Assembly (NCBI GenBank): GCA_947451045.1
Contig: CANFXM010000003.1
Coordinates: forward strand, 1-44,376
Reading direction: 5' to 3'
DNA length: 44,376 bases
DNA from: Actinomycetota bacterium
GTDB taxonomy: Bacteria > Actinomycetota > Actinomycetes > Nanopelagicales > Nanopelagicaceae
Below the pieces are notes generated by a model. That model saw nothing but the letters and a program-made list of their open reading frames with translations, was not told where the DNA came from and searched no databases. The position numbers and the translations under genes are program-made. Of the stretch, positions 1-32,321 are shown piece after piece; the stretch's first letter is position 1, and each line of letters opens with the position of its first letter.

Positions 1-2015
1 AGTTGTTTCTTTACATGTGAGGTTACTGCTTCGATTTCGCGCTCTGATACATATGCACCTTGGATACGAATCGCTCGGCTAGCGCCCATAGGAATAAATA
101 AACCATCGCCTTGGCCTACAAGTTTTTCGGCACCGGGGCTATCTAAAATAACTCGACTATCTGCAAGTGAACTTGTTGCAAATGAGAGACGTGAAGGAAC
201 GTTGGCTTTAATCAAACCTGTCACTACATCAACAGATGGTCGCTGCGTTGCAAGAACTAAGTGAATACCAGCTGATCGTGCTAACTGAGTTATACGAACA
301 ACTGATTCTTCAACCTCTTTCGCCGCAACCATCATGAGGTCTGCAAGTTCGTCGATGATAATAAGTAAATATGGATACGGTTCAACTGTTCGATCACTCC
401 CTGGGGGAACCGTTACCTTTCCTGCTCGAACAGCTTTGTTGAAATCATCGATATGCCTAAAGCCAAATGTCGAAAGATCTTCGTAACGCAAATCCATTTC
501 GCGCACTACCCACGTAAGGGCATCTGATGCCTTCTTGGGGTTAGTAATAATCGGTGTTATCAAATGCGGAATACCTTCATATGCAGTCAGTTCAACACGT
601 TTTGGATCAATGAGAACTAAACGAACTTCATCGGGAGTTGCCCGCATCAAAATCGATGTGATCATCGCATTGATCATGGAAGATTTTCCTGCACCTGTTG
701 CACCTGCAACTAATAGGTGTGGCATTTTTGCCAAATTTGCACAAACAAAATTTCCTTCTACATCTTTACCAAGTGCTACCAACATTGGGTGATGATCTTG
801 GCCTGCAACACTTGAGCGCATAACATCGCCGAGAGCGACGATTTCACGGTCAGCATTGGGAATTTCAATTCCAACCGCTGACTTACCTGGAATAGGTGAA
901 AGAATTCGTACATCTCCACTAGCTACTGCGTATGAAATATTCTTGGCCAGCGCAGTGATGCGCTCAACCTTTACGGCATTTCCAAGTTCTACTTCATAGC
1001 GAGTAACGGTTGGGCCACGCATAAATCCCGTTACTTGCGCATCAATTTCAAATTGTGCAAATACCTCTGTTAGGGCAGCAACGACAACTTCATTGGCCTT
1101 GCTCTTAGCTTTTGCAGCAGGGCCTGCGCGCAGTAAATCTTGAGGCGGAAGTTCATAATTACTATCGGGTGATAATAATAATTGCTCTGGACGTTTGCCT
1201 TCGGTTGAAGGTGCAACAAGTGGCGTGACTGGAACTGGAACGGTGAACTCTTCATCAAATGTTGCTTCGTCGAGTTCTTCCTCTTCTTCTGGTTCTGGTT
1301 CATTCCACGCAGCCACAACTGGAGTTTCAAATGGTGGCGTGTCAGTAATTTCAAAGTCTTCGCCCCGCTCTGCGCGTTCAGGACGCTTTGACCACAACCA
1401 GCGTGAAAGATTTGAGATTCTCGTAAATACTTCTGAAACTGGAGTTGCAGTAACAACGAGTAGACCAAAAATGAAAATAATTATGAGTACTGGATAGGTC
1501 AGCAAAGAAGTCATGAGGGCAACCAAAGGCGTACTCACTCCATATCCAAGCCAGCCTCCACCATGTCTCATTGCGGTTGCGCCGGTGCCAACGGAACCAT
1601 TGAGTAAATGTGCAATTCCCGTGGCGCTAATTAATAATGCAAAAGTGCCAACAATTATTCGCCCGGTGGCTTTCTTTTCATCAGGGGATCGAAATAACCT
1701 CAGTGCAAAATAAATAAGGACAACGGGCATAAAGAAACCGATGCGCCCGAATGCACCGTAAACAAAAGAATAAAGTGTGCGACCTACAAAGTTATCTGCT
1801 CGAAACCATGTTCCAGCAGTTGCTGTGAGTGCCAAAATAAGTAGGAGAAAAGCAACACCGTCGCGTTGATGTGCCGGATCTAAATCACGAGCTCTCCTGG
1901 CTAAGAAGCGAACCGCTCCCCCAAGTGTGCGAGCAAAAAATTTCCAAATAGCAGCCAGCCCTCTGCCTAATGCAGAAGCGACGCCTGATTTTTTTGCTTT
2001 TTTACTCTTGGCCAC
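1..2015 (-). CDS. ftsK: DNA translocase FtsK, N-terminal part (3' end beyond the window)
   Basis: Septum-anchored ATPase that pumps chromosomal DNA through the closing septum and works with Xer recombinases. About 671 codons are present and the C-terminal DNA-reading gamma domain lies off the left edge. Hydrophobic membrane segments fall near residues 53-71, 92-108, 119-138 and 165-192. A Glu-rich acidic linker near 235-255 follows. The motor domain has Walker A GATGAGKSS at residues 438-446 (bases 678-704) and Walker B LLIIIDELADLMM further on. The start is a GTG at 2013-2015, with an in-frame stop just upstream at 2034-2036 and no strong ribosome site. It follows rnj by 54 bases, as in many actinobacteria. 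Family assignment is firm; the exact start is less certain. Confidence 0.95.
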   Translation of the reverse strand, partial: MAKSKKAKKSGVASALGRGLAAIWKFFARTLGGAVRFLARRARDLDPAHQRDGVAFLLLILALTATAGTWFRADNFVGRTLYSFVYGAFGRIGFFMPVVLIYFALRLFRSPDEKKATGRIIVGTFALLISATGIAHLLNGSVGTGATAMRHGGGWLGYGVSTPLVALMTSLLTYPVLIIIFIFGLLVVTATPVSEVFTRISNLSRWLWSKRPERAERGEDFEITDTPPFETPVVAAWNEPEPEEEEELDEATFDEEFTVPVPVTPLVAPSTEGKRPEQLLLSPDSNYELPPQDLLRAGPAAKAKSKANEVVVAALTEVFAQFEIDAQVTGFMRGPTVTRYEVELGNAVKVERITALAKNISYAVASGDVRILSPIPGKSAVGIEIPNADREIVALGDVMRSSVAGQDHHPMLVALGKDVEGNFVCANLAKMPHLLVAGATGAGKSSMINAMITSILMRATPDEVRLVLIDPKRVELTAYEGIPHLITPIITNPKKASDALTWVVREMDLRYEDLSTFGFRHIDDFNKAVRAGKVTVPPGSDRTVEPYPYLLIIIDELADLMMVAAKEVEESVVRITQLARSAGIHLVLATQRPSVDVVTGLIKANVPSRLSFATSSLADSRVILDSPGAEKLVGQGDGLFIPMGASRAIRIQGAYVSEREIEAVTSHVKKQ

Positions 2016-2069
2016 ACCGGCAATAATAATTGTTTACTAATTGCGCAATGGCTAGGCGCGCCGTTGAAA

Positions 2070-3752
2070 CTAGACCTCAATAACTACAGGCACAATCATT
2101 GGGCGACGACGATGTGTTGTGCCAACCCATTCACCAATAGTTTTACGAACTATTTGAGAAAGTTGATGAGTCCCATTTATTCCTTCAGTAACTGCGCGTG
2201 CAAGAGCTTTTTCAATCTTGAGTTTTACTTCATCGAATAGCGCTTCATCTTGGGCAAATCCACGTGCATGAATGTCAGGGCCAGCTATTATTTTTCCACT
2301 TTGAGATTCAATAACGACAACACAAGAAATAAATCCTTCTTCTCCAAGAATGCGGCGATCTTTTAGTGAACTCTCGGTAATGTCACCAATGCTCTGTCCA
2401 TCAACATAAACAAATCCGCATGGAACCGAACCAACAACAGATACCTCGTGATTTATAAGATCTACAACAACCCCATTTTCAATAATGAGAGCATGTTCGC
2501 GAGGAACACCTGCAGAGATTGCGATTTCTGCATTGGCTGTGAGATGGCGCCATTCACCATGAACAGGTAGGACATAGCGGGGTTTAACAATGTTGTAGCA
2601 ATACAAGAGTTCACCCGCAGCTGCGTGACCAGAGACATGCACCATTGCATTTGCTTTGTGTACAACTTTGGCACCAAAGCGAATGAGCTCATTGATAACT
2701 CTAAATACTGAATTCTCATTGCCGGGAATAAGTGACGAAGCGAGAATGACAGTATCTCCTGCGCCTACCCGAATTTGATGGTCGCCATTTGCCATACGAG
2801 AAAGCGCCGCCATTGGCTCGCCTTGCGAACCAGTACAAATCAAAACAACATTGTCATCATAGAGATCGAGTTCTTTTACATCTATCAATAATCCTGAAGG
2901 AATTGTCAGGTATCCCATATCTTCAGCAATCTTCATATTGCGCACCATTGAGCGACCTATAAATACAACTTTGCGATCGTGCTTTGCAGCAATATCAATT
3001 ACTTGTTGCACTCTGTGCACATGTGAAGAAAATGAAGCGACGATAACGCGACGCTTGGTTGCTCCGATAACGCGATTGAGCGCAGGCATAATTTCGCGCT
3101 CTGATGGAGTAAATCCTGGAATATCTGCATTCGTGGAATCGACGAGGAAAAGATCGACACCTTCTTCACCGAGGCGGGCAAAAGTTCGCAAATCAGTAAT
3201 TCGACCGTCAAGTGGTAATTGATCCATCTTGAAATCGCCAGTATGCAAAACGGTTCCAGCATCGGTGTGAATTGCAACTGCGAGTGCATCAGGAATTGAG
3301 TGATTGACCGCAACAAACTCAAGTTCAAATGCACCAACATCTTCGCGCATTCCTTCTTTCACTTCGCGAGTAAGAGGTGTAATGCGATGTTCTTTGAGTT
3401 TGGCGGTAATGAGTGCCAAGGTCAACGCTGATCCATACAGTGGAATATCTCCTCGCTCGCGAAGTAGATATGGAACTGCACCAATGTGATCCTCATGGCC
3501 ATGTGTAAGAAAAATTGCAATAACATCATTGAGACGTTCACGAATGTAGGAGAAATCAGGCAAAATCAAATCAATACCAGGTTGATTTTCTTCAGGAAAA
3601 AGCACACCACAATCGACGATGAGTAACTTTTTCTTGTATTCAAAGACAGTCATGTTGCGACCGATCTCGGCTAAACCTCCAAGTGCGACAATGCGCAATC
3701 CACCATCTACTAGAGGTGGGGGCGTTCCGAGTTCTGGATGAGGATGGGTCAT
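2070..3752 (-). CDS. rnj: Ribonuclease J (metallo-beta-lactamase/beta-CASP nuclease)
   Basis: Endo- and 5'-3' exoribonuclease of mRNA decay and rRNA maturation. The 560 residues match the family length. The zinc-binding signature HGHEDH sits at residues 84-89 (H84, H86, D88, H89), followed by the beta-CASP region and a C-terminal domain. The N-terminus GLRIVALGGLAEIGRNM is typical of RNase J. Its ATG overlaps the dapA stop by one base (TAATG), indicating translational coupling in a thyX-dapA-rnj unit. This order is standard in actinobacteria. Confidence 0.96.
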   Translation of the reverse strand: MTHPHPELGTPPPLVDGGLRIVALGGLAEIGRNMTVFEYKKKLLIVDCGVLFPEENQPGIDLILPDFSYIRERLNDVIAIFLTHGHEDHIGAVPYLLRERGDIPLYGSALTLALITAKLKEHRITPLTREVKEGMREDVGAFELEFVAVNHSIPDALAVAIHTDAGTVLHTGDFKMDQLPLDGRITDLRTFARLGEEGVDLFLVDSTNADIPGFTPSEREIMPALNRVIGATKRRVIVASFSSHVHRVQQVIDIAAKHDRKVVFIGRSMVRNMKIAEDMGYLTIPSGLLIDVKELDLYDDNVVLICTGSQGEPMAALSRMANGDHQIRVGAGDTVILASSLIPGNENSVFRVINELIRFGAKVVHKANAMVHVSGHAAAGELLYCYNIVKPRYVLPVHGEWRHLTANAEIAISAGVPREHALIIENGVVVDLINHEVSVVGSVPCGFVYVDGQSIGDITESSLKDRRILGEEGFISCVVVIESQSGKIIAGPDIHARGFAQDEALFDEVKLKIEKALARAVTEGINGTHQLSQIVRKTIGEWVGTTHRRRPMIVPVVIEV

Positions 3753-10907: not shown

Positions 10908-11044
10908 GGGTCGCTCCTTTTCTCAGCTACCCGCGCCGAGAGGACATATGAATCTTCGATCGAAGTTCACGGAACTTTTCTAGTAAAAAAATCTCCGGAA
11001 ACCACTACCGAGGACCATTGCCGTCGGCGGGTAGGTGTGTCTAA
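10908..11044 (-). promoter_or_regulatory. Structured leader between rpsO and pnp
   Basis: This gene-free stretch is rich in pairing on the transcribed strand. The 8-mer CTACCCGC (11027-11034) is a perfect complement of GCGGGTAG (10927-10934), closing a domain of about 108 bases. Inside lie AAGTTC-CGT-GAACTT (10963-10977) and the 12-base palindrome CTTCGATCGAAG (10954-10965). These two share three bases and so compete. A seven-base U run follows the first half. An actinobacterial RNA motif upstream of pnp (Actino-pnp) has been described; whether this is it needs a covariance-model search. A role in autoregulation by PNPase is inference. Confidence 0.55.
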
Positions 11045-24265: not shown

Positions 24266-25264
24266 TTATCGATCTAAAAGATTCTGAGTTGGGTTATACG
24301 CTTTACCGGAGCGACGCTTTGCAATTGCACTGAGTGCCTCAAGGACAACTCGATTTGCCAGAATTGCAGTGATATCAGCGCTATCAAATGCAGGGGCAAC
24401 TTCTACAACATCGATTCCAACAACTGGGAGCTCTAAACAAATTCGACGCACTGCCTCTAGCAATTCGCGGCTCGTCATTCCGCCAGGTTCTGGCGTTCCA
24501 GTGCCCGGAGCCATTCCTGGATCAACAACATCAATATCGACAGATAGGAAAACTCCATCGCATTCATTTGTCAGCGTTGCAAATGATTCATCCAAAACAG
24601 TATTAAGGCCACGGTGATGAATTTCTGTCATTTCATATGAGCGCATTCCTTGATCGCGCATCCAGTCAAGAGTTGTGTTATCAGGCCAGTATCCACGCAG
24701 CCCAAGTTGCAAGAATCGATCTCCGCGAACAAATCCACCATCTATAAGGCGACGCATTGGTGTGCCATGACCCACGAGTGCGCCCCACTGATCCTCACCA
24801 GTATCTGCGTGCGCATCAAAATGCACCATTGAAATCTTTCCGAGTCCGCGATGTCGCGCAATACCTGCAACATCTGCAGATGCAATCGAATGATCTCCGC
24901 CCAGAATCACAGGTATTTTTCCAGCACGCGAAATCTTTTCAGTTGCTTTTGCTAGTACATCTAATGAAGCGACAAGGTCGCCGCCTGGCATCAATAAATC
25001 CCCTGCATCGACAACTTTCAAATCTTTCAAACCATCCGTGCGCAGTGCTAAATGTGGACGTTCTCCATCGTGAGGTAAATAGTCTCCAGCGCGAATTGCT
25101 TGCGGGCCAAATTTGGCACCAGAACGATATGAAGTTCCACTATCAATGGGAGCGCCAAGAATTATCACATCAGCATCGGCATATGTTTTCGGATCATCGA
25201 GATCGCATGCTGGGATACCAAGAAATGTAAAACTTGGACCATACATATTGCCATGGTTTGTCAT
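24266..25264 (-). CDS. speB: Agmatinase/ureohydrolase family protein
   Basis: Manganese ureohydrolase of 332 residues. The metal ligands are all visible: GGDHS, FDAHADTGED and SVDIDVVDPG. The GTGTPEPGG loop after the last site fits the agmatinase branch. Agmatine to putrescine plus urea is the likely reaction, but guanidinobutyrase or a related guanidino-acid hydrolase cannot be ruled out by eye. ATG start. It is the last gene of the polyamine module, 24 bases after the FAD oxidoreductase. No urease or arginine decarboxylase gene is in the window, so the source of agmatine is unknown. Confidence 0.87.
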   Translation of the reverse strand: MTNHGNMYGPSFTFLGIPACDLDDPKTYADADVIILGAPIDSGTSYRSGAKFGPQAIRAGDYLPHDGERPHLALRTDGLKDLKVVDAGDLLMPGGDLVASLDVLAKATEKISRAGKIPVILGGDHSIASADVAGIARHRGLGKISMVHFDAHADTGEDQWGALVGHGTPMRRLIDGGFVRGDRFLQLGLRGYWPDNTTLDWMRDQGMRSYEMTEIHHRGLNTVLDESFATLTNECDGVFLSVDIDVVDPGMAPGTGTPEPGGMTSRELLEAVRRICLELPVVGIDVVEVAPAFDSADITAILANRVVLEALSAIAKRRSGKAYNPTQNLLDR

Positions 25265-25288: not shown

Positions 25289-26701
25289 TTAGGAATCGAA
25301 GCCTAAGCCTAAGAAATCGAGGAGTCTGAGCCAGAGATTACGTTTTCCATTATTTTCATCTGCACGGTTTATAGACCATTGGGTCAATCGAATAAAAATA
25401 AAGCGAAATGGCTCAGGAGGGAATGGTATGGGCTTCTTACGAACCATTGCTAAACGAGTTCGTTCATTATCTACTTCATCTAATAAATCCAACATCACTT
25501 GGGCGCCAAATCTGGTTGCACCAACACCAAGACCTGTGAATCCAAGTACGTAGGCGACCCGGCCACGATATGCCTTACCCCAAAAAGGTGAGAAGCGAGA
25601 ACATGTATCGATAGCTCCTCCCCAACCATGTGTAAATTTGATGCCTTTGAGTTGTGGAAATGTTTCTAGAAAATCAGCTGCTAATTGCGCATATGTTTCA
25701 GCATCGGTTTCATATTCTTGGCGAACTTTTCCTCGGAAGTTATAAATTGCATCATAACCGCCCCATAGAATTTCATTATCTTTTGTCATTCGATAATAAT
25801 GAAATTGATTTCCTGCCTCAGATAATCCTTCACGACCATCCCAACCTATTGCAGCTAATTGCTCAGATGATAGGGGCTCTGTTACTAACTGAAAATCATA
25901 AACTGGAACTACATACTTCTTCGCACGTCGAACTAGTGGTGTAAATACATTTGTTGCCAGTGCTACTTTTTGTGCATATACAGTGCCGTATGGAGAATGA
26001 ACAATCATTCCGTTATTTGTTCGCTCTAACCATTCAACTTTAGTGTTCTCAAAAATTTGTACTCCAAGTGATAAACAAGCACGTTCTAATCCCCACACAA
26101 GTCGCGCAGGATCAACGAGTGCCGTGCCATCTGGATCCCACAATGCACCTTTATACAAAGGGGACTTCACGCGTTCGAATACTTGCACTTGGCTTAAAAC
26201 TTCTACGTGATCACCATAGGCATTTCTCAAAGTCGCTTCTTCTTCAAAACTATGTGATTGCCAATCTTCAACTGCAACGCGTAACTCACCAGTTCGCTCC
26301 CACCCACAATTAATTCCGTAACGAGAGATAGCTTCTTCTATTCCATCCATATTTTCTCGACCGAGGCGTTCAATAATTTCCATTTCATCTTTGAATCGGC
26401 TGTAACCATTCATAAATCCATGAGTCAACGAAGAACTGCAAAATCCGCCATTGCGTCCAGAAGCTCCTGCACCAGTTTCGCGCTGCTCAACAACTATTAC
26501 TTGGCGCTCTGGATTACGTTCCTTTGCAAGCAATGCAGTCCATAGTCCTGTGTACCCTGCACCAACAATGCATAAATCCGTTGTGACATCACCAATCAAT
26601 GTCGGATTAGGTTGTGGTTCTAAAGGATCTTCATCGAGCCAATAAAGCTGTGGCTGCATATGCGATAAGTGTTTGAGTACGTAAGGGTCGATGGTGGCCA
26701 T
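25289..26701 (-). CDS. FAD-dependent amine oxidoreductase (DAO family, PuuB-like)
   Basis: The 470-residue protein has the FAD-binding dinucleotide fold VGAGYTGLWTALLA near residue 47-60, the ASGRNGGF motif near 80 seen in the gamma-glutamylputrescine oxidase-like group, and a C-terminal FTGLGVGATRFGAQ flavin segment. A 40-residue tail ends with LLDFLGLGFDS. By context it would oxidise putrescine or a derivative to an aminoaldehyde. No gamma-glutamylputrescine ligase (puuA) is present, so the substrate may not be gamma-glutamylated. The ATG at 26699-26701 lacks a clear ribosome site and sits one base after a strong RNA stem. Confidence 0.85.
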   Translation of the reverse strand: MATIDPYVLKHLSHMQPQLYWLDEDPLEPQPNPTLIGDVTTDLCIVGAGYTGLWTALLAKERNPERQVIVVEQRETGAGASGRNGGFCSSSLTHGFMNGYSRFKDEMEIIERLGRENMDGIEEAISRYGINCGWERTGELRVAVEDWQSHSFEEEATLRNAYGDHVEVLSQVQVFERVKSPLYKGALWDPDGTALVDPARLVWGLERACLSLGVQIFENTKVEWLERTNNGMIVHSPYGTVYAQKVALATNVFTPLVRRAKKYVVPVYDFQLVTEPLSSEQLAAIGWDGREGLSEAGNQFHYYRMTKDNEILWGGYDAIYNFRGKVRQEYETDAETYAQLAADFLETFPQLKGIKFTHGWGGAIDTCSRFSPFWGKAYRGRVAYVLGFTGLGVGATRFGAQVMLDLLDEVDNERTRLAMVRKKPIPFPPEPFRFIFIRLTQWSINRADENNGKRNLWLRLLDFLGLGFDS

Positions 26702-26702
26702 C

Positions 26703-26806
26703 GCGCTATCCGGCCTTGACCGGAATCACCCCTTCACATCTACTCGTAGTTGGCCCGGGTCCTCCGGAGTCCTACCCCATAGCGCAAGTCGATCTACTCC
26801 AACTTG
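26703..26806 (-). ncRNA. Candidate structured RNA upstream of the FAD oxidoreductase
   Basis: Locally G+C-rich, self-complementary stretch in the 130-base gap after potC. On the transcribed strand a first hairpin CAAGTTG/CGACTTG (26800-26806 with 26785-26791) has the loop GAGTAGAT. Next, GCGCTAT (26779-26785) pairs perfectly with ATAGCGC (26703-26709). Inside that stem are GGGT/ACCC (26774-26777 with 26757-26760), CA-A-CTA-CGAG-TAG-A-TG (26737-26752) and CCGG-TCAAGG-CCGG (26710-26723). GAGTAGAT recurs at 26738-26745. The outer stem ends one base before the ATG. No match to tRNA, SRP, guanidine, TPP or glycine families by eye. Function is unknown; translational control of the oxidoreductase is the simplest idea. 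Confidence 0.55.
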
Positions 26807-26831
26807 TTCATCGTTATGGCAGACCTAAATA

Positions 26832-27668
26832 TTAGCGCGCTTTTCTTTCTTTGACGAGTTGACCCACGACAACGATGGTTAATGCGAGAAAAAACATCGA
26901 AGAACCAATCACATTGGCTTGTGCGGGAATACCACGTGCAGCAGATACATAGACAAACTTGGGGAAAGTAATCAGAGTGCCTGAATTAAAATTAGTAATG
27001 ATGAAGTCATCGAATGAAAGGCTAAAGGCAAGAAGGGCCGCACCAGCAATTCCAGGTGCTACCAATGGAAGCGTCACTCTTCGGAAAGTCTCAAATTCAT
27101 TTGCATAGAGGTCCATTGCCGCTTGTTCTAACTTGGGATCCAAGCTTGCAATACGTGCCTTTACTGTTACGACAACGAATGAGATACAGAACATAACGTG
27201 TGCAATAACTGTTGGCCAAAAACCTGGGTTAATTTTGAAGAGAAGAAATAAAGAGAGAAGTGAAGCTCCAAGCACAATCTCTGGTGTTGCCATAGGTAAG
27301 AAGATAAGTAAATTCGAACTTGAACGTCCTTTGAATTGATAGCGTCCTATTGCAAAGGCAATCATCGTTCCAAGAATCGTGGCAAAAGTGGTGGCCAGAA
27401 AACCAATTTTGATTGAGTTTCCCAATGCATTACATACCTCTGGCGCTCCGCATGGATTTTGCCAATTACGGAAGGTAAAACTCTGCCAAATTAGATTGCT
27501 TTTCCCCGCATCATTGAATGAAAAGACAAAGGTGTAAGCAACTGGAATGAAAAGATACGTGAAACCAAAAATCATGTATATGCGTAATACATTACGGCCA
27601 AACCATCGTGAGATTCTTGCGTTGAAAGGAATCGTAGGAATCGGTGCATCTTGAACTACACGTGTCAT
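26832..27668 (-). CDS. potC: Polyamine ABC transporter permease PotC
   Basis: Inner-membrane permease of a spermidine/putrescine importer. The 278 residues contain six hydrophobic segments. The ABC-permease coupling motif lies in AAMDLYANEFETFRRVTLPLVAPGIAG. The segment FSLSFDDFIITNFNSG is typical of PotC. ATG start within an ATGA overlap with potB. It is the last transporter gene, and the 130-base structured gap follows. Confidence 0.95.
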   Translation of the reverse strand: MTRVVQDAPIPTIPFNARISRWFGRNVLRIYMIFGFTYLFIPVAYTFVFSFNDAGKSNLIWQSFTFRNWQNPCGAPEVCNALGNSIKIGFLATTFATILGTMIAFAIGRYQFKGRSSSNLLIFLPMATPEIVLGASLLSLFLLFKINPGFWPTVIAHVMFCISFVVVTVKARIASLDPKLEQAAMDLYANEFETFRRVTLPLVAPGIAGAALLAFSLSFDDFIITNFNSGTLITFPKFVYVSAARGIPAQANVIGSSMFFLALTIVVVGQLVKERKAR

Positions 27669-28519
27669 ACCAATTCCTCCGTTCCTGCTTTACGAATATA
27701 AAGAGTGACAAGAATAAGAATTGCGACCATCAACGTAAATGAAAGTGCAGCCGCCGTTGGATAATCGACAATCTTGAAGTAGCGAGACTCAATCACATTT
27801 CCGATCATTTTTGTGCTGGGACTTCCTAGAATCGAGGCGTTGACATAATCTCCGGCAGCAGGGATAAATGTAAGCAGTGTTCCCGCAACAACACCTGGCA
27901 TAGAAAGCGGAAGTGTCACGCGTCGAAAAGTGGTTAGTCCATTGGCATATAAATCACCTGATGCTTCAATGGTCCGTGGATCGATTCTTTCCAACGATGC
28001 ATATAGTGGCAGAGTCATAAATGGAAGAAAGTTATAAGTCATTCCAGTAACGACTGCAAAAGCAGTGGAAGTCAGGGTCGTTTGCTGACCAATAATATGA
28101 AGTGAGCGCAATGTGGGAACAACGAATCCTTCTTCTCCCAGGATCTGCTTCCAGGCAACGGTTCGAAGAAGAAATGAGGTAAAAAAGGGCGCAACCACAA
28201 GGACAAGTAGAATATTTTTGAATTTACCGGATTTAAAGGCAATCGCATATGCAAGTGGGTATGAAATTGCTAGGGCTAATATTGTTGCAAGGGTTGCATA
28301 AACAAATGAGCGAAGAAATTGGTCTTTGTTATCTGTGAAAGCATGAATGTAATTACTAAATGCAAATGTCTGTGTGTATTGTCCAGTATCTCCACCTGAT
28401 ATTGGTGTCTGCGTGGATGTTTGCGCTAAGTTGATAATCGGTAATACAAAAAAAGTAAAAAGAAATGCAAAACCAGGAAAGAGTAAGAGATAGGGAACTT
28501 GAGACTTACTTATCTTCAT
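27665..28519 (-). CDS. potB: Polyamine ABC transporter permease PotB
   Basis: Second permease of the polyamine importer, 284 residues with six membrane segments. The EAA-like coupling loop is SGDLYANGLTTFRRVTLPLSMPGVVAG, and the PotB-typical FIPAAGDYVNASILG follows. The ATG overlaps the potA stop (ATGA), and its own stop overlaps potC (ATGA), so potA, potB and potC are tightly coupled. Confidence 0.95.
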   Translation of the reverse strand: MKISKSQVPYLLLFPGFAFLFTFFVLPIINLAQTSTQTPISGGDTGQYTQTFAFSNYIHAFTDNKDQFLRSFVYATLATILALAISYPLAYAIAFKSGKFKNILLVLVVAPFFTSFLLRTVAWKQILGEEGFVVPTLRSLHIIGQQTTLTSTAFAVVTGMTYNFLPFMTLPLYASLERIDPRTIEASGDLYANGLTTFRRVTLPLSMPGVVAGTLLTFIPAAGDYVNASILGSPSTKMIGNVIESRYFKIVDYPTAAALSFTLMVAILILVTLYIRKAGTEELV

Positions 28520-29664
28520 TCGTTGACTGGTTCCTCAGGATTTACTTCAGTTCCCGCTTCAATATCTTCATCGCCATGGAGTCCAAATGTGAAGTTTGGC
28601 TCCCATGAAATTACTACTTCATCTCCCTTATCAAATGGAGCTACTCCATCATCATTTTGTTCAAAAACCATAAGTTCTTGACCCCATGGCATCGAAACTA
28701 CGTACTGAGTACTCACGCCGATGTAGGAAACATCTTCGATATGACCACCTGTAAGAGTATTTCCTCGAGTAGGCGTACCAGTAAGAGAGATGCGGAACTT
28801 TTCTGGGCGAATTCCAGCATAGAGGGAGTTATCTACGGCATGGCTTCGATTCTTTGGCATTGAAATTTTTTGACCAAAAAGATCTACAACCAAATTATCG
28901 CCATCGTTACCTTCAATTTTTCCTTTTATGAGATTGGACTGTCCCAAAAAGTTTGCAACAAAGGCAGTCTCTGGATTGTCGTAAAGATCTGCGGGTGAAC
29001 CCATTTGTTCAATTCTGCCCTCATTCATCACAGCAATCGTGTCAGCCATTGTCATGGCTTCTTCTTGATCGTGAGTTACATGGACGAATGTAAGACCCAC
29101 TTCGCGTTGAATCCATTTGAGTTCAATTTGCATTTGCCTACGTAGCTTGAGGTCGAGGGCGCCAAGTGGCTCATCTAAAAGCAATAGCGCTGGTCTATTT
29201 ACAATCGCACGAGCCAGAGCAATACGTTGTTGTTGTCCACCAGATAACTGAGTTGGTTTGCGTGATGCTAAATGTGGAAGTTCAACAAGATTGAGAACTT
29301 TATCTACTTGTTCCTTCACATCTTTGACGCCCCGACGACGTAAACCGAATGCAATATTTTCAAAAATCGAAAGATGCGGAAAGAGGGCATAGTTTTGAAA
29401 AACAGTATTGATAGGGCGCTGATAAGGACGTGTAGTTGTGATGTCTGTATCACCTAAGTGAATACTGCCAACAGTTGGTTCTTCTAATCCTGCAACCATG
29501 CGAAGCGTTGTAGTTTTGCCACAACCTGAAGGACCAAGGAGTGCGAAGAAAGAACCTTTAGGAATTGTCAGAGTCAGATCATCAACAGCATTGAAATCAC
29601 CATAGGTTTTAGTGAGTCGTGTCAGGCGCAGGTCACCTCGTGCAGATATTGCGTCGTTAGACAC
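28516..29664 (-). CDS. potA: Polyamine ABC transporter ATP-binding protein PotA
   Basis: ATPase of the importer. The 382 residues hold Walker A GPSGCGKT at residues 44-51, the signature LSGGQQQR near 140, Walker B LLLLDEPLGALD and the switch histidine in FVHVTHDQEEAM. A C-terminal TOBE domain (about 280-360, VFEQNDDGVAPFDKGDEVVISW) fits substrate regulation in the PotA/MalK group. GTG start immediately after the potD TAG. Confidence 0.96.
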   Translation of the reverse strand: MSNDAISARGDLRLTRLTKTYGDFNAVDDLTLTIPKGSFFALLGPSGCGKTTTLRMVAGLEEPTVGSIHLGDTDITTTRPYQRPINTVFQNYALFPHLSIFENIAFGLRRRGVKDVKEQVDKVLNLVELPHLASRKPTQLSGGQQQRIALARAIVNRPALLLLDEPLGALDLKLRRQMQIELKWIQREVGLTFVHVTHDQEEAMTMADTIAVMNEGRIEQMGSPADLYDNPETAFVANFLGQSNLIKGKIEGNDGDNLVVDLFGQKISMPKNRSHAVDNSLYAGIRPEKFRISLTGTPTRGNTLTGGHIEDVSYIGVSTQYVVSMPWGQELMVFEQNDDGVAPFDKGDEVVISWEPNFTFGLHGDEDIEAGTEVNPEEPVNE

Positions 29665-30846
29665 CTAGTTACCCTGCGCCTTTTGGAATGCTTGTGCCCA
29701 TTTAGTTTCTTCAGCTGGTGTCAGCGAACGAAATACTTGTAGTCGGGCTGCTGTCTTTTCTGTTGGGAAAATATATTCACTCTTTGAAAGTTCCGGTGCA
29801 ATCTTTTCCATAGCGGCTTGAGCCCCTTTTACAGGACAGACATAGTTCACATATGCAGCAACTTCGGCAGCAACTGTTGGATCGTAGTAATAATTAATGA
29901 GTTTTTCTGCATTTGCTTTCCCTGCTGCACTTGCAGTTGATGGAATCATCAAGTTATCTCCAGAAATAGTTCCGCCAGATTCTGGGATTGCAAAATCAAA
30001 CTTGCCTTTATTTTCAGAGGAAAGAATAAACATATCGCCAGACCACCCAATAACTGCGCTTGCATCTCCAGATGTAAGGTCTTGTGCATACTCATTACCC
30101 TTAACTCCACGAATCCATCCATCAGCAATCTTCTTCGCCATGAAATCAACTGCATTCATGAATTGTGATTCTGTAACTGTGGCAAGGCTTACTCCTTGCG
30201 CCATCAAAATAATTCCAATGGTGTCGCGCATTTCAGTGAGTACAACAATCTTTCCCTTATTTTGCGGAGAAAAAAGTTGATCAAGGGTGTGGATACCCTT
30301 TGGATTCTTCTCAACATTCCATCCAAATCCAGACATAATGCCTTGCCAGGTTAGTGTTGATTCACGCTTTGGATCATAAGAAGGCGTAGCAAGTGAATCC
30401 AGAATATTTACTTTATTAGGAATATTTGCCGAATTAAATTTTTGTGAATACCCAAGACGAATCCAGCGCGCTGCCATCCAGTCAGTTGGAGTAACTACGT
30501 CATAACCAATATCTTGACCTAGTTTGAGTTGGGCTTGTACTTTTCCAAAGAATTCGTCGTTATCGTTGTAATCTTCAAAATACTGCGCATCAATTCCAGT
30601 ATCTTTTTTGAATTTTTCTAACGTTGGATACTTCTTAGTCTTTGAATCAAAATCAAGATACAGCGGCCAGTTTCCCCATCGAACAGTATTTGTGTTTTTT
30701 GCGCCACCACTTTTAGCACCCGACCCACATGCAGCGAGTAAACCTGCCGCACCTAATCCTCCAGCTCCTGCTAATACTCCACGTCGTGAAAGATGTAGAC
30801 CAAGAACTGAACGAGCTTCTGGTGAGAGTGAACTTTCTGTAACCAT
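29665..30846 (-). CDS. potD: Polyamine-binding lipoprotein PotD (Tat-type signal)
   Basis: Extracytoplasmic binding protein of the importer, 393 residues. The N-terminus has a twin-arginine segment SRRGVLAGAGGLGA and a lipobox LAACG near residue 40, so it appears to be Tat-exported and lipid-anchored, suiting a Gram-positive cell. The mature part begins with NTVRWGNWPLYLDFD and contains FEDYNDNDEFFGKVQ and DVVTPTDWMAARW, the PotD-type ligand site. ATG start with AGGAG nine bases upstream, 50 bases after the aldehyde dehydrogenase. Confidence 0.95.
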   Translation of the reverse strand: MVTESSLSPEARSVLGLHLSRRGVLAGAGGLGAAGLLAACGSGAKSGGAKNTNTVRWGNWPLYLDFDSKTKKYPTLEKFKKDTGIDAQYFEDYNDNDEFFGKVQAQLKLGQDIGYDVVTPTDWMAARWIRLGYSQKFNSANIPNKVNILDSLATPSYDPKRESTLTWQGIMSGFGWNVEKNPKGIHTLDQLFSPQNKGKIVVLTEMRDTIGIILMAQGVSLATVTESQFMNAVDFMAKKIADGWIRGVKGNEYAQDLTSGDASAVIGWSGDMFILSSENKGKFDFAIPESGGTISGDNLMIPSTASAAGKANAEKLINYYYDPTVAAEVAAYVNYVCPVKGAQAAMEKIAPELSKSEYIFPTEKTAARLQVFRSLTPAEETKWAQAFQKAQGN

Positions 30847-30896
30847 ACTGATTTACTCCTGAAATTCTTTAGGTGCAGATTGGGTTGATACTTTTA

Positions 30897-32321
30897 TTAT
30901 GCTCCTAAATTAGTCATAACATGCTTTATTCGGGTGTAATCCTCGAATCCATATGCTGATAGATCTTTTCCATATCCAGAACGTTTGAAACCACCATGAG
31001 GCATTTCAGCTACAACAGGAATATGAGTGTTAATCCAGACGCAACCAAAATCGAATGCTTTTGCCATTCTCATCGCGCAGCCATGATCTTTGGTCCATAC
31101 ACTCGATGCCAAACCATAATCGACACCATTTGCTTTACTCACCGCATCGGCTTCATCAGTGAATTTTTGAACAGTGATGACTGGTCCAAAAATCTCGTTC
31201 TGAATCATTTCATCACTTTGTTCAAGACCTGCAACGACAGTTGCAGGGAAGAAAAATCCAGGACGATCTAATGCGCTTCCACCTGTAGTGACTTTTGCAT
31301 GTGATGGAATTCGATCAAAGAAGGCACTTACGCGTGCTAATTGATTGGCGTTATTTACTGGTCCTAGGAAGACATCCTCGTGGGGGGTGCCAATTGCAAT
31401 TCCTTTAGCTTGCTCTGTAAGCAGAGCAACAAAATCATCGTAGACAGATGCTTGAACAATGACGCGAGTTGCTGCGGTGCAATCTTGACCAGCATTGAAA
31501 TATCCAGCCATTGCAATTGTTTCTGCAGCAGCAGCTAAATCTGCATCAGCAAAAACAACAACAGGAGCTTTGCCACCAAGTTCTAGATGCACTCTTTTGA
31601 GTTGCGTTGCAGCAGATTGAGCAACTTGAATACCTGCGCCAACAGATCCAGTAATAGAAACCATATCTGGACGCTTATGGTCGACAAGTGCGCGGCCAGT
31701 TTCTCTTTCGCCACACACAACGTTGAACACACCTTCTGGCAAGAACTCAGACATAACTTTGGCCATCCACACCGTTGACACAGGTGTTGTATCACTTGGC
31801 TTGAGAACAACTGTATTTCCCGCAGCAATTGCAGGTGCCCACTTCCATACAGCCATCATCATTGGATAATTCCACGGTGTTACTTGCCCGATGACACCAA
31901 TTGGTTCGCGGCGAATAAAAGAAGTCATACCAGGCATATATTCCGCGGCGGATTTTCCTTCAAGATTTCGCGCCGCACCTGCAAAAAATCTAATCTGATC
32001 CACCATAGGTGGAACTTCTTCAGAAGTTGTCAGTGAAATGGGTTTTCCGGTATTACGAGATTCAATTTCAATTAATTCTTCTTGGTTGCTTTCGATCGCA
32101 TCAGCGATCTTGAGAAGTGCTCTTTGACGTTGAGATGGGGTTGAATCTCTCCATCCAGGAAAGGCATCACTAGCTGCTTTGAATGCAGAATCAATGTCAG
32201 CACTATTTGATTTTGGCGCACTCGCATACGCCTGACCCGTTGATGGATCGATAATCGAAGTTGTTTCACCAGAAGTACTAGCTACTTCTTTGCCATTAAT
32301 AAAATTTGTTAGCTTTTCCAT
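30897..32321 (-). CDS. NAD-dependent aldehyde dehydrogenase, probably 4-aminobutanal dehydrogenase
   Basis: The 474-residue protein has the full ALDH catalytic set: N151 in TPWNYPMMMAVWKWAP, K174 in NTVVLKPSD, E247 in HLELGGKAPVVVF and C281 in FNAGQDCTAATRV. The QDCTAATR sequence and MMMAVWKWAPAIAAGN resemble the YdcW/PatD aminobutyraldehyde group, so oxidation of 4-aminobutanal to GABA is likely. Betaine-aldehyde or another aminoaldehyde is the main alternative. ATG start, 33 bases after rlmN, first gene of the polyamine module. No separate promoter was recognised. Confidence 0.9.
   Translation of the reverse strand: MEKLTNFINGKEVASTSGETTSIIDPSTGQAYASAPKSNSADIDSAFKAASDAFPGWRDSTPSQRQRALLKIADAIESNQEELIEIESRNTGKPISLTTSEEVPPMVDQIRFFAGAARNLEGKSAAEYMPGMTSFIRREPIGVIGQVTPWNYPMMMAVWKWAPAIAAGNTVVLKPSDTTPVSTVWMAKVMSEFLPEGVFNVVCGERETGRALVDHKRPDMVSITGSVGAGIQVAQSAATQLKRVHLELGGKAPVVVFADADLAAAAETIAMAGYFNAGQDCTAATRVIVQASVYDDFVALLTEQAKGIAIGTPHEDVFLGPVNNANQLARVSAFFDRIPSHAKVTTGGSALDRPGFFFPATVVAGLEQSDEMIQNEIFGPVITVQKFTDEADAVSKANGVDYGLASSVWTKDHGCAMRMAKAFDFGCVWINTHIPVVAEMPHGGFKRSGYGKDLSAYGFEDYTRIKHVMTNLGA

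Follow-up and report, generated by a model that had tools for sequence, protein, structure and literature searches.

A candidate orphan cis-regulatory leader RNA preceding a FAD-dependent oxidoreductase gene in Nanopelagicaceae

For the breakdown of polyamines, no well-accepted riboswitch is known to us. Among the leader RNAs tied to polyamine genes, the spermidine riboswitch is a SAM-I variant, for which the available part of the source gives the SAM-I four-stem architecture, 13 examples, a location before biosynthesis genes, and an action through transcription termination (PMC10853860). The potC RNA motif (RF01751) is a probable cis-regulatory RNA named after potC and, in the part of the source available, is listed as marine only; the same text lists guanidine-III (ykkC-III, RF01763), another small actinobacterial leader, for Actinobacteria and delta-Proteobacteria (PMC2864571). 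The leader described here was located in a 44,376-nt stretch of DNA, the whole of which is called the window. It differs from the spermidine riboswitch in that it matches no Rfam family at E up to 10, has a catabolic-type enzyme gene behind it, and shows no terminator by scan, while it differs from RF01751 in having no Rfam match and in tracking an oxidoreductase instead of potC. It resembles RF01763 in being a small actinobacterial leader, here with an agmatinase-like gene downstream, and differs from it in that an Rfam match is again absent. ANTAR sites require paired hexaloops with A1 and G4. ANTAR-target RNAs of Actinobacteria likewise place two successive hairpins in a leader, according to the accessible text of PMC8164766; the element was rejected as one of them, as its core loop AGGAC has 5 nt and the loop of its first hairpin is variable, so that the hexaloops are missing. 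The core string, and that of a further leader termed motif-2 below, were absent from the open-licence literature searched, which also held nothing pairing Nanopelagicales with a riboswitch. The hosts are apparently acI-type freshwater actinobacteria; feeding on polyamines is predicted for the acI lineage (PMC5574706).

The element was delimited by comparison with relatives (Table 1) and is longer than the stretch 26703–26806 marked in a first-pass annotation. The G+C fraction was 0.59 at 26700–26799, compared with 0.47 on the preceding side and 0.42 on the following side, which agrees with the enrichment noticed in that annotation. The folding energy was unremarkable (z = −1.62, with 11 of 200 shuffles equal or better), and the reality of the element rests on strong similarity among relatives and on covariation, not on folding energy. 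A covariance-model search of Rfam 15 (4227 families) gave no match for the leader at the curated threshold or at E up to 10, in line with the earlier failure to recognize a known family. A tRNA scan found none at the element, and a consensus scan of the window detected neither a terminator nor a standard sigma-70 promoter there. The genome contains a single full copy, other similarity matches being only 14–17 nt long, and CCGGAGGACCCGGGCC occurs once in this genome with up to two mismatches permitted. A repeat or mobile element was dropped as a candidate on the basis of this one full copy. A conserved leader peptide was also dropped, as the commonest short frame (GUG, column 94) is present in only 29 of 43 sequences and is not general.

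Table 1. Coordinates of the leader element, its parts, and associated genes; positions refer to the window unless a locus is named.
Feature	Position	Strand	Remarks
Leader element	26819-26699	-	5' leader of the FAD-dependent oxidoreductase gene, comparison-based
P0, 5'-terminal hairpin	26777..26819	-	10/14 pairs changed on both sides (A2)
P2 hairpin, GGUAGG..CCAACU	26748..26776	-	both-side changes at 3/6 stem pairs
Near-invariant core UCCGGAGGACCCGGG, predicted P2b hairpin CCGG-AGGAC-CCGG	26754..26768	-	43-sequence alignment
Displaced Shine-Dalgarno-like site AAGGGGUGA	26726..26734	-	GGGGUG 42/43, GAGGUG 1/43
P3, UCCGGU-CAAG-GCCGGA	26709..26724	-	between Shine-Dalgarno-like site and AUG; comparison
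Oxidoreductase start codon	26699..26701	-	ORF 25289-26701
-10-like box TAATAT	26829..26834	-	overlaps potC stop codon (TAA); comparison only
FAD-dependent oxidoreductase (DAO family)	25289..26701	-	PF01266, E=3.3e-59
Agmatinase-like ureohydrolase, gene after oxidoreductase	24266..25264	-	TIGR01230 above cut-off
Aminobutyraldehyde dehydrogenase, PotD-, PotA-, PotB-, PotC-like genes, upstream	26832..32321	-	model matches
Motif-2 leader	L277 1501-1515	+	18 more loci L270-L288; also L243, L250, L251

The secondary structure was examined on an alignment (A2) of 43 diverse sequences, which were obtained by similarity thinning from 69 distinct intact elements, truncated elements being excluded. Some of its rows are apparently misaligned, at least L143, L144, L146, L150, and L151 in P0 or P3 and L133 in P3, leading to lower covariation counts and to spoiled two-state energies (at least five rows). 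An RNAalifold prediction from the first 15 sequences mispaired P2 and was superseded once more genera were added. The lower stem of P0 consists of CCAUAACG and CGCUAUGG with one A·C mismatch in the window, and at least 7 of its 8 pairs are formed in all 43 sequences; above it lie a 5-nt bulge and an upper stem CAAGUU../..GACUUG, capped by a loop that varies across the alignment. In the P2 stem, an internal pair is mismatched in 23 of the 43 sequences and the adjoining pair in 13. The core is invariant at 13 of 15 positions (n = 43), the remaining two being conserved in at least 90%. The structure composed of P0, P2, P2b, and P3 paired 92.1% of the cells of the 43 sequences, and sliding lowered this value from 92% to 30–47%. 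Both-side changes in the window's family were detected at 15 of 30 pairs as compared with 8.7 ± 1.5 in shuffles, and in 92 cells as compared with 25.4 ± 6.0; none of 500 shuffles reached either the pair or the cell count. Aligning relatives in search of compensatory changes, as had been proposed with the first-pass annotation, hence supports P0, the core-bearing P2, and P3 at the level of the alignment and fails to support the outer stem drawn there. The pairing of P2b is unproven by covariation because this hairpin hardly varies. The length of the P0–P2 portion is steady at 68–73 nt in both families that carry it. Judged from this conservation and covariation, the leader is almost certainly a structured cis-acting RNA, as first proposed. 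Its conserved structure, compensatory changes, and fixed place before a gene assign it to the broad kind of cis-regulatory leader RNAs, within which it is best read from its sequences as an orphan family, new within that known kind.

The start codon had been described as lacking a clear ribosome site. Such a sequence was found in all the aligned elements, displaced from the AUG by the P3 hairpin (Table 1). The distance from its G run to the AUG is 25–28 nt when counted linearly, which is beyond the usual range, and 7–13 nt with P3 looped out. At the position of P3, an unbroken hairpin of 5–7 pairs (G-U allowed) can be formed in 43 of 43 spacers, with both-side changes at 2 of 6 pairs. The anti-Shine-Dalgarno sequence is standard, and on this basis the ribosome-site-like sequence would pair with 16S rRNA. 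On the opposite side of the element, a TAnnnT box ends 6–12 nt ahead of P0 in all 43 window-family sequences and in 9 of 9 of a second family (52 of 52 together), as compared with 11% and 1%, respectively, of random places having a TAnnnT that ends 3–14 nt away. The box of the window is partly fixed by the TAA stop of potC, and loci without potC carry the box too. The −35 side is barely above random, with 3.4 versus 2.7 of 6 positions in the window's family and 3.1 versus 2.4 in the second. Because a −10-like box lies just upstream, the element looks like the leader of its own transcript, such that the RNA probably starts at or beside the first base of P0 and the element constitutes the 5' end of the mRNA.

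The best NCBIfam matches of the oxidoreductase, far below cut-off, were a putative aminophosphonate oxidoreductase and L-pipecolate oxidase. For the agmatinase-like product, the sequence-nearest solved chains are amidino- and guanidino-hydrolases. Among the upstream genes, the dehydrogenase (NF010000) and PotA (TIGR01187) were above cut-off, and the PotB, PotC, and PotD models matched below it. SCO5671 of Streptomyces is presumably the homologue of the window's oxidoreductase. It is a predicted PuuB-like gamma-glutamylpolyamine oxidoreductase in the part of PMC5403932 available. Over 40 loci of the window's family, the oxidoreductase follows the element in 38, the other two stopping at a contig edge; in L154 and L160, the match to the enzyme starts slightly late. 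PotC lies ahead of the element in 28 loci. Two of the remaining 12 start at a contig edge. The other 10 belong to six genera and have no potC match upstream, the genes on that side being listed for seven of them. Since the element stands in front of the oxidoreductase also without potC, it belongs to the enzyme gene and not to the operon, and the previous assignment to control of the catabolic half of a polyamine operon was too narrow. In L145, the oxidoreductase and agmatinase-like genes are separated by an additional ORF of 536 aa (1869-3479). Elsewhere in the window, the minus strand carries an Actino-pnp RNA, a known Rfam family, at 10948-11019.

BLAST of the leader gave strong similarity (E < 1e-20) for 14 of the 36 relatives from the same genus, and 8 of 15 genomes (own included) aligned only over bases 46 or 50 to 133, a portion that begins at the 3' arm of the first hairpin and stops just short of the start codon. 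Weak early BLAST matches outside the family were discarded, those examined (L019, L020, and L022) showing mere 18–26 nt similarity. A covariance model built from 15 sequences detected the element in 132 of 296 family genomes, belonging to 10 of 17 genera. Fifteen of the 132 matches were weak (13 in the window's genus and 2 in another genus), and the 13 that were inspected all lacked P0–P2. The oxidoreductase was present in 143 of the 296 genomes (E up to 1e-60), 13 of them without an element match; when 10 of these 13 upstream regions were read, the element turned out to be present in two, located at a contig edge or next to an N, and missing from the other eight. Two genomes contained the element without a gene match, and in both it is placed at a contig end. 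A pattern scan of named genomes gave 58 loci, all titled as actinobacteria and including Candidatus Planktophila; a few uncultured-bin titles (Bifidobacterium breve, Streptomyces griseus) apparently belong to misnamed bins. An order-level search covered 296 genomes apparently identical to those of the family search, so it added no information.

Natural deletion variants were observed for this element. P0–P2 was gone in 11 of 11 inspected weak-match genomes of the window's genus, in which the −10-like box, the ribosome site, and P3 were kept. The loci lacking this module (L123–L127, L155–L158, L161, and L162) have a ribosome site of GAGG instead of GGGG, a change that may represent one event. 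In three other genomes of the same genus, the whole element was gone, leaving approximately 20 nt between the end of the preceding frame, apparently potC, and the ATG. L165 and L167, where the element is fully absent, contain a TAAACT box approximately 20 nt before the ATG with no ribosome site seen, as if their mRNA were nearly leaderless. In the second family, P0–P2 was visible by eye and P3 was not. These natural losses indicate that the element is dispensable and built from separable modules.

The second family, which is GC-rich, came from a class search, in which a further covariance model (R2) matched 23 of 394 genomes, one of them outside the window's family (E 0.0022), where the match lies directly ahead of the homologous oxidoreductase. 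The 15-nt core was found in 9 of 17 second-family genomes at ten places, nine directly before the homologous enzyme (51–55% identity) and one at an unrelated place. In each of the nine leaders, P2 forms 5 of 5 pairs (seen at 1% of random places) and P0 forms at least 7 of 8 (seen at 21% of them, and so weak alone), as compared with 2 of 5 and 6 of 8 for the stray core copy. Their P0 and P2 differ in sequence, the P2 stem being GGCCG/CGGCC and variants. In seven second-family sequences, both-side changes occurred at 8 of 23 pairs versus 1.9 ± 1.1; L259 and L260 were excluded from this alignment (A5) and from the R3 model for a misaligned P0. Model R2 overlooked three second-family carriers (G394, G557, and G625), which are apparently within its sample. 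R3, made from the seven second-family sequences only, was run on 22 chosen sources (138 kb), where it recovered 7 of 12 window-family elements at E up to 1, located at P0–P2, and missed five. The E-values were 0.001 and 0.0028 in two genera, 0.22–0.36 at four loci, and 0.85 for the window. The stray core copy L258 also scored 0.21, indicating that the core alone carries part of the R3 score. Over 296 class genomes, R3 gave 8 matches at E up to 0.5: three in the second family, of which two are clear and one is doubtful, and five weak ones outside both families; this run overlooks the window's family and is hence no proof of absence elsewhere. The core word was detected in 3 of 40 class upstream regions (39 obtained via protein search plus G612), all from the second family. 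Four second-family leaders matched no Rfam family at E up to 1. A diverged second-family version was found by R3 in L248 (152-222, minus strand), in which AGGACCCGGG is kept and the first CCGG is altered.

A distinct conserved leader, motif-2, stands before an oxidoreductase of this kind in a further actinobacterial family and consists of GAAGGGAYTGGTGGGA followed by a variable hairpin (consensus GAAGGGAYUGGUGGGA plus hairpin). It was found as a single copy in 19 of 39 genomes, 18 of which have the enzyme match downstream, and six such leaders had no Rfam match (E up to 1). It is conceivable, though rather doubtful, that the element and motif-2 represent two unrelated riboswitch classes that respond to the same amine- or polyamine-derived ligand and turn the catabolic enzyme ON. 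The element would in that case be a two-domain device, of which the sensor P0–P2 and the spacer P3 were gained and lost separately.

The account that best explains these data, held at a little under even confidence, is that the element is a conserved cis-regulatory leader of an amine-type FAD oxidoreductase gene acting as a translational ON switch. Its parts differ in strength: control of translation initiation by the leader is fairly probable, and direct sensing of a small molecule is a tentative proposition. Transcription would start at the first base of P0 or immediately beside it, and folding of P3 would bring the ribosome site within reach of the AUG, two steps that are well grounded in the comparison. 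P0–P2 might then serve as the sensing domain. When occupied, its P2b would hold ACCC and leave the ribosome site free; when empty, CCGGAGGACCC might pair with GGGGUGAUUCCGG, masking the ribosome site and destroying P3. The signal is guessed from the gene function to be most likely a small molecule, namely an amine, a polyamine, or a product of the pathway. The bases needed for the masking pairing are complementary in 96% of the cells, and 8 of its 10 pairs can form in no fewer than 42 of the 43 sequences; with both sides so nearly constant, covariation is absent. The CCGG words indeed allow several alternative pairings, as pointed out at first pass; such palindromes pair anyhow, which counts against the weight of the masking pairing. 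In predicted ensembles at 37 °C, 9 of 43 sequences favored the masked state and 27 favored P2b; at 15 °C, the respective counts were 7 and 27. The window's own sequence favored masking, at 0.99. The two-state energy difference averaged −1.4 kcal/mol (sd 4.1), with at least five rows misaligned. The switch is further weakened by the at least eight family genomes that hold the gene without the element, and by the lack of an established counterpart of the masking at the ribosome site in the second family. A riboswitch usually precedes several different pathway genes, and here the oxidoreductase alone stands behind the element, in 38 of 40 window-family loci (the remaining two stop at a contig edge) and in 9 of 10 second-family places.

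This restriction to one gene family also fits autoregulation by the enzyme. The oxidoreductase or another RNA-binding protein could bind the core hairpin and thereby control translation of its own gene, an explanation that we consider unlikely but worth keeping in view. It accords with the one full copy in this genome, with the occurrence of the element without a nearby potC, and with a near-invariant part that is a single small hairpin, like protein sites. The long P0 and the steady P0–P2 length exceed what a simple protein site needs. CsrA is a known binder of GGA loops, and its gene (PF02599) was not found in this genome (0 of 1, approximately 96% complete), against 3 positives among 14 control genomes. 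Somewhat less likely still is a constitutive element that senses nothing, in which P0, as a 5'-terminal hairpin, would protect the mRNA and P3 would do no more than set the spacing of the ribosome site. The probable position of P0 at the very 5' end speaks for this, as do the several genomes that lost P0–P2 or the whole element and retained the gene, whereas a stabilizer has no need of a near-invariant 15-nt core across two families of differing base composition.

The first-pass annotation had drawn a cloverleaf, whose outer stem closes three hairpins and, as considered here, would switch against P0. That stem is perfect in the window, ATAGCGC at 26779-26785 being fully complementary to GCGCTAT at 26703-26709, and it is part of the minimum-energy fold; the three inner hairpins (CCGG/CCGG, CTAC/GTAG, and CCGG/CCGG) can be drawn as described. 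The 7-bp hairpin placed directly upstream, CAAGTTG..CGACTTG, can also form, but base 26785 is common to this hairpin and the outer stem. Over the 43 sequences, the cloverleaf paired 80.5% of cells versus 77.9 ± 1.1 in shuffles (7 of 500 reached it) and 19–53% when slid. The outer stem may exist in the window's genus, where 15 of 15 sequences have 5–7 of its 7 pairs and it could compete with P0. Its compensatory changes are not in excess (2 of 7 pairs versus 2.7 in shuffles). At least 6 of its 7 pairs are present in 28 of 43 sequences, but 10 sequences, drawn from five other genera, keep four or fewer while P0 persists. The cloverleaf is thus not a general feature and is improbable as an explanation; the annotation had the right spot and, on the aligned sequences, the wrong fold. 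A repeat, a mobile element, a tRNA-like remnant, or chance hairpins would be consistent with the modest folding z-score, and are refuted, to the point of a negligible residual likelihood, by the single full copy, the lack of a tRNA, and the covariation in two families.

Given the consensus, the two-state pairing, and the natural deletion variants, the proposed switch lends itself to direct tests with short synthetic RNAs. In genomes as small and streamlined as these, a leader RNA in control of an amine oxidase would amount to a regulatory handle.
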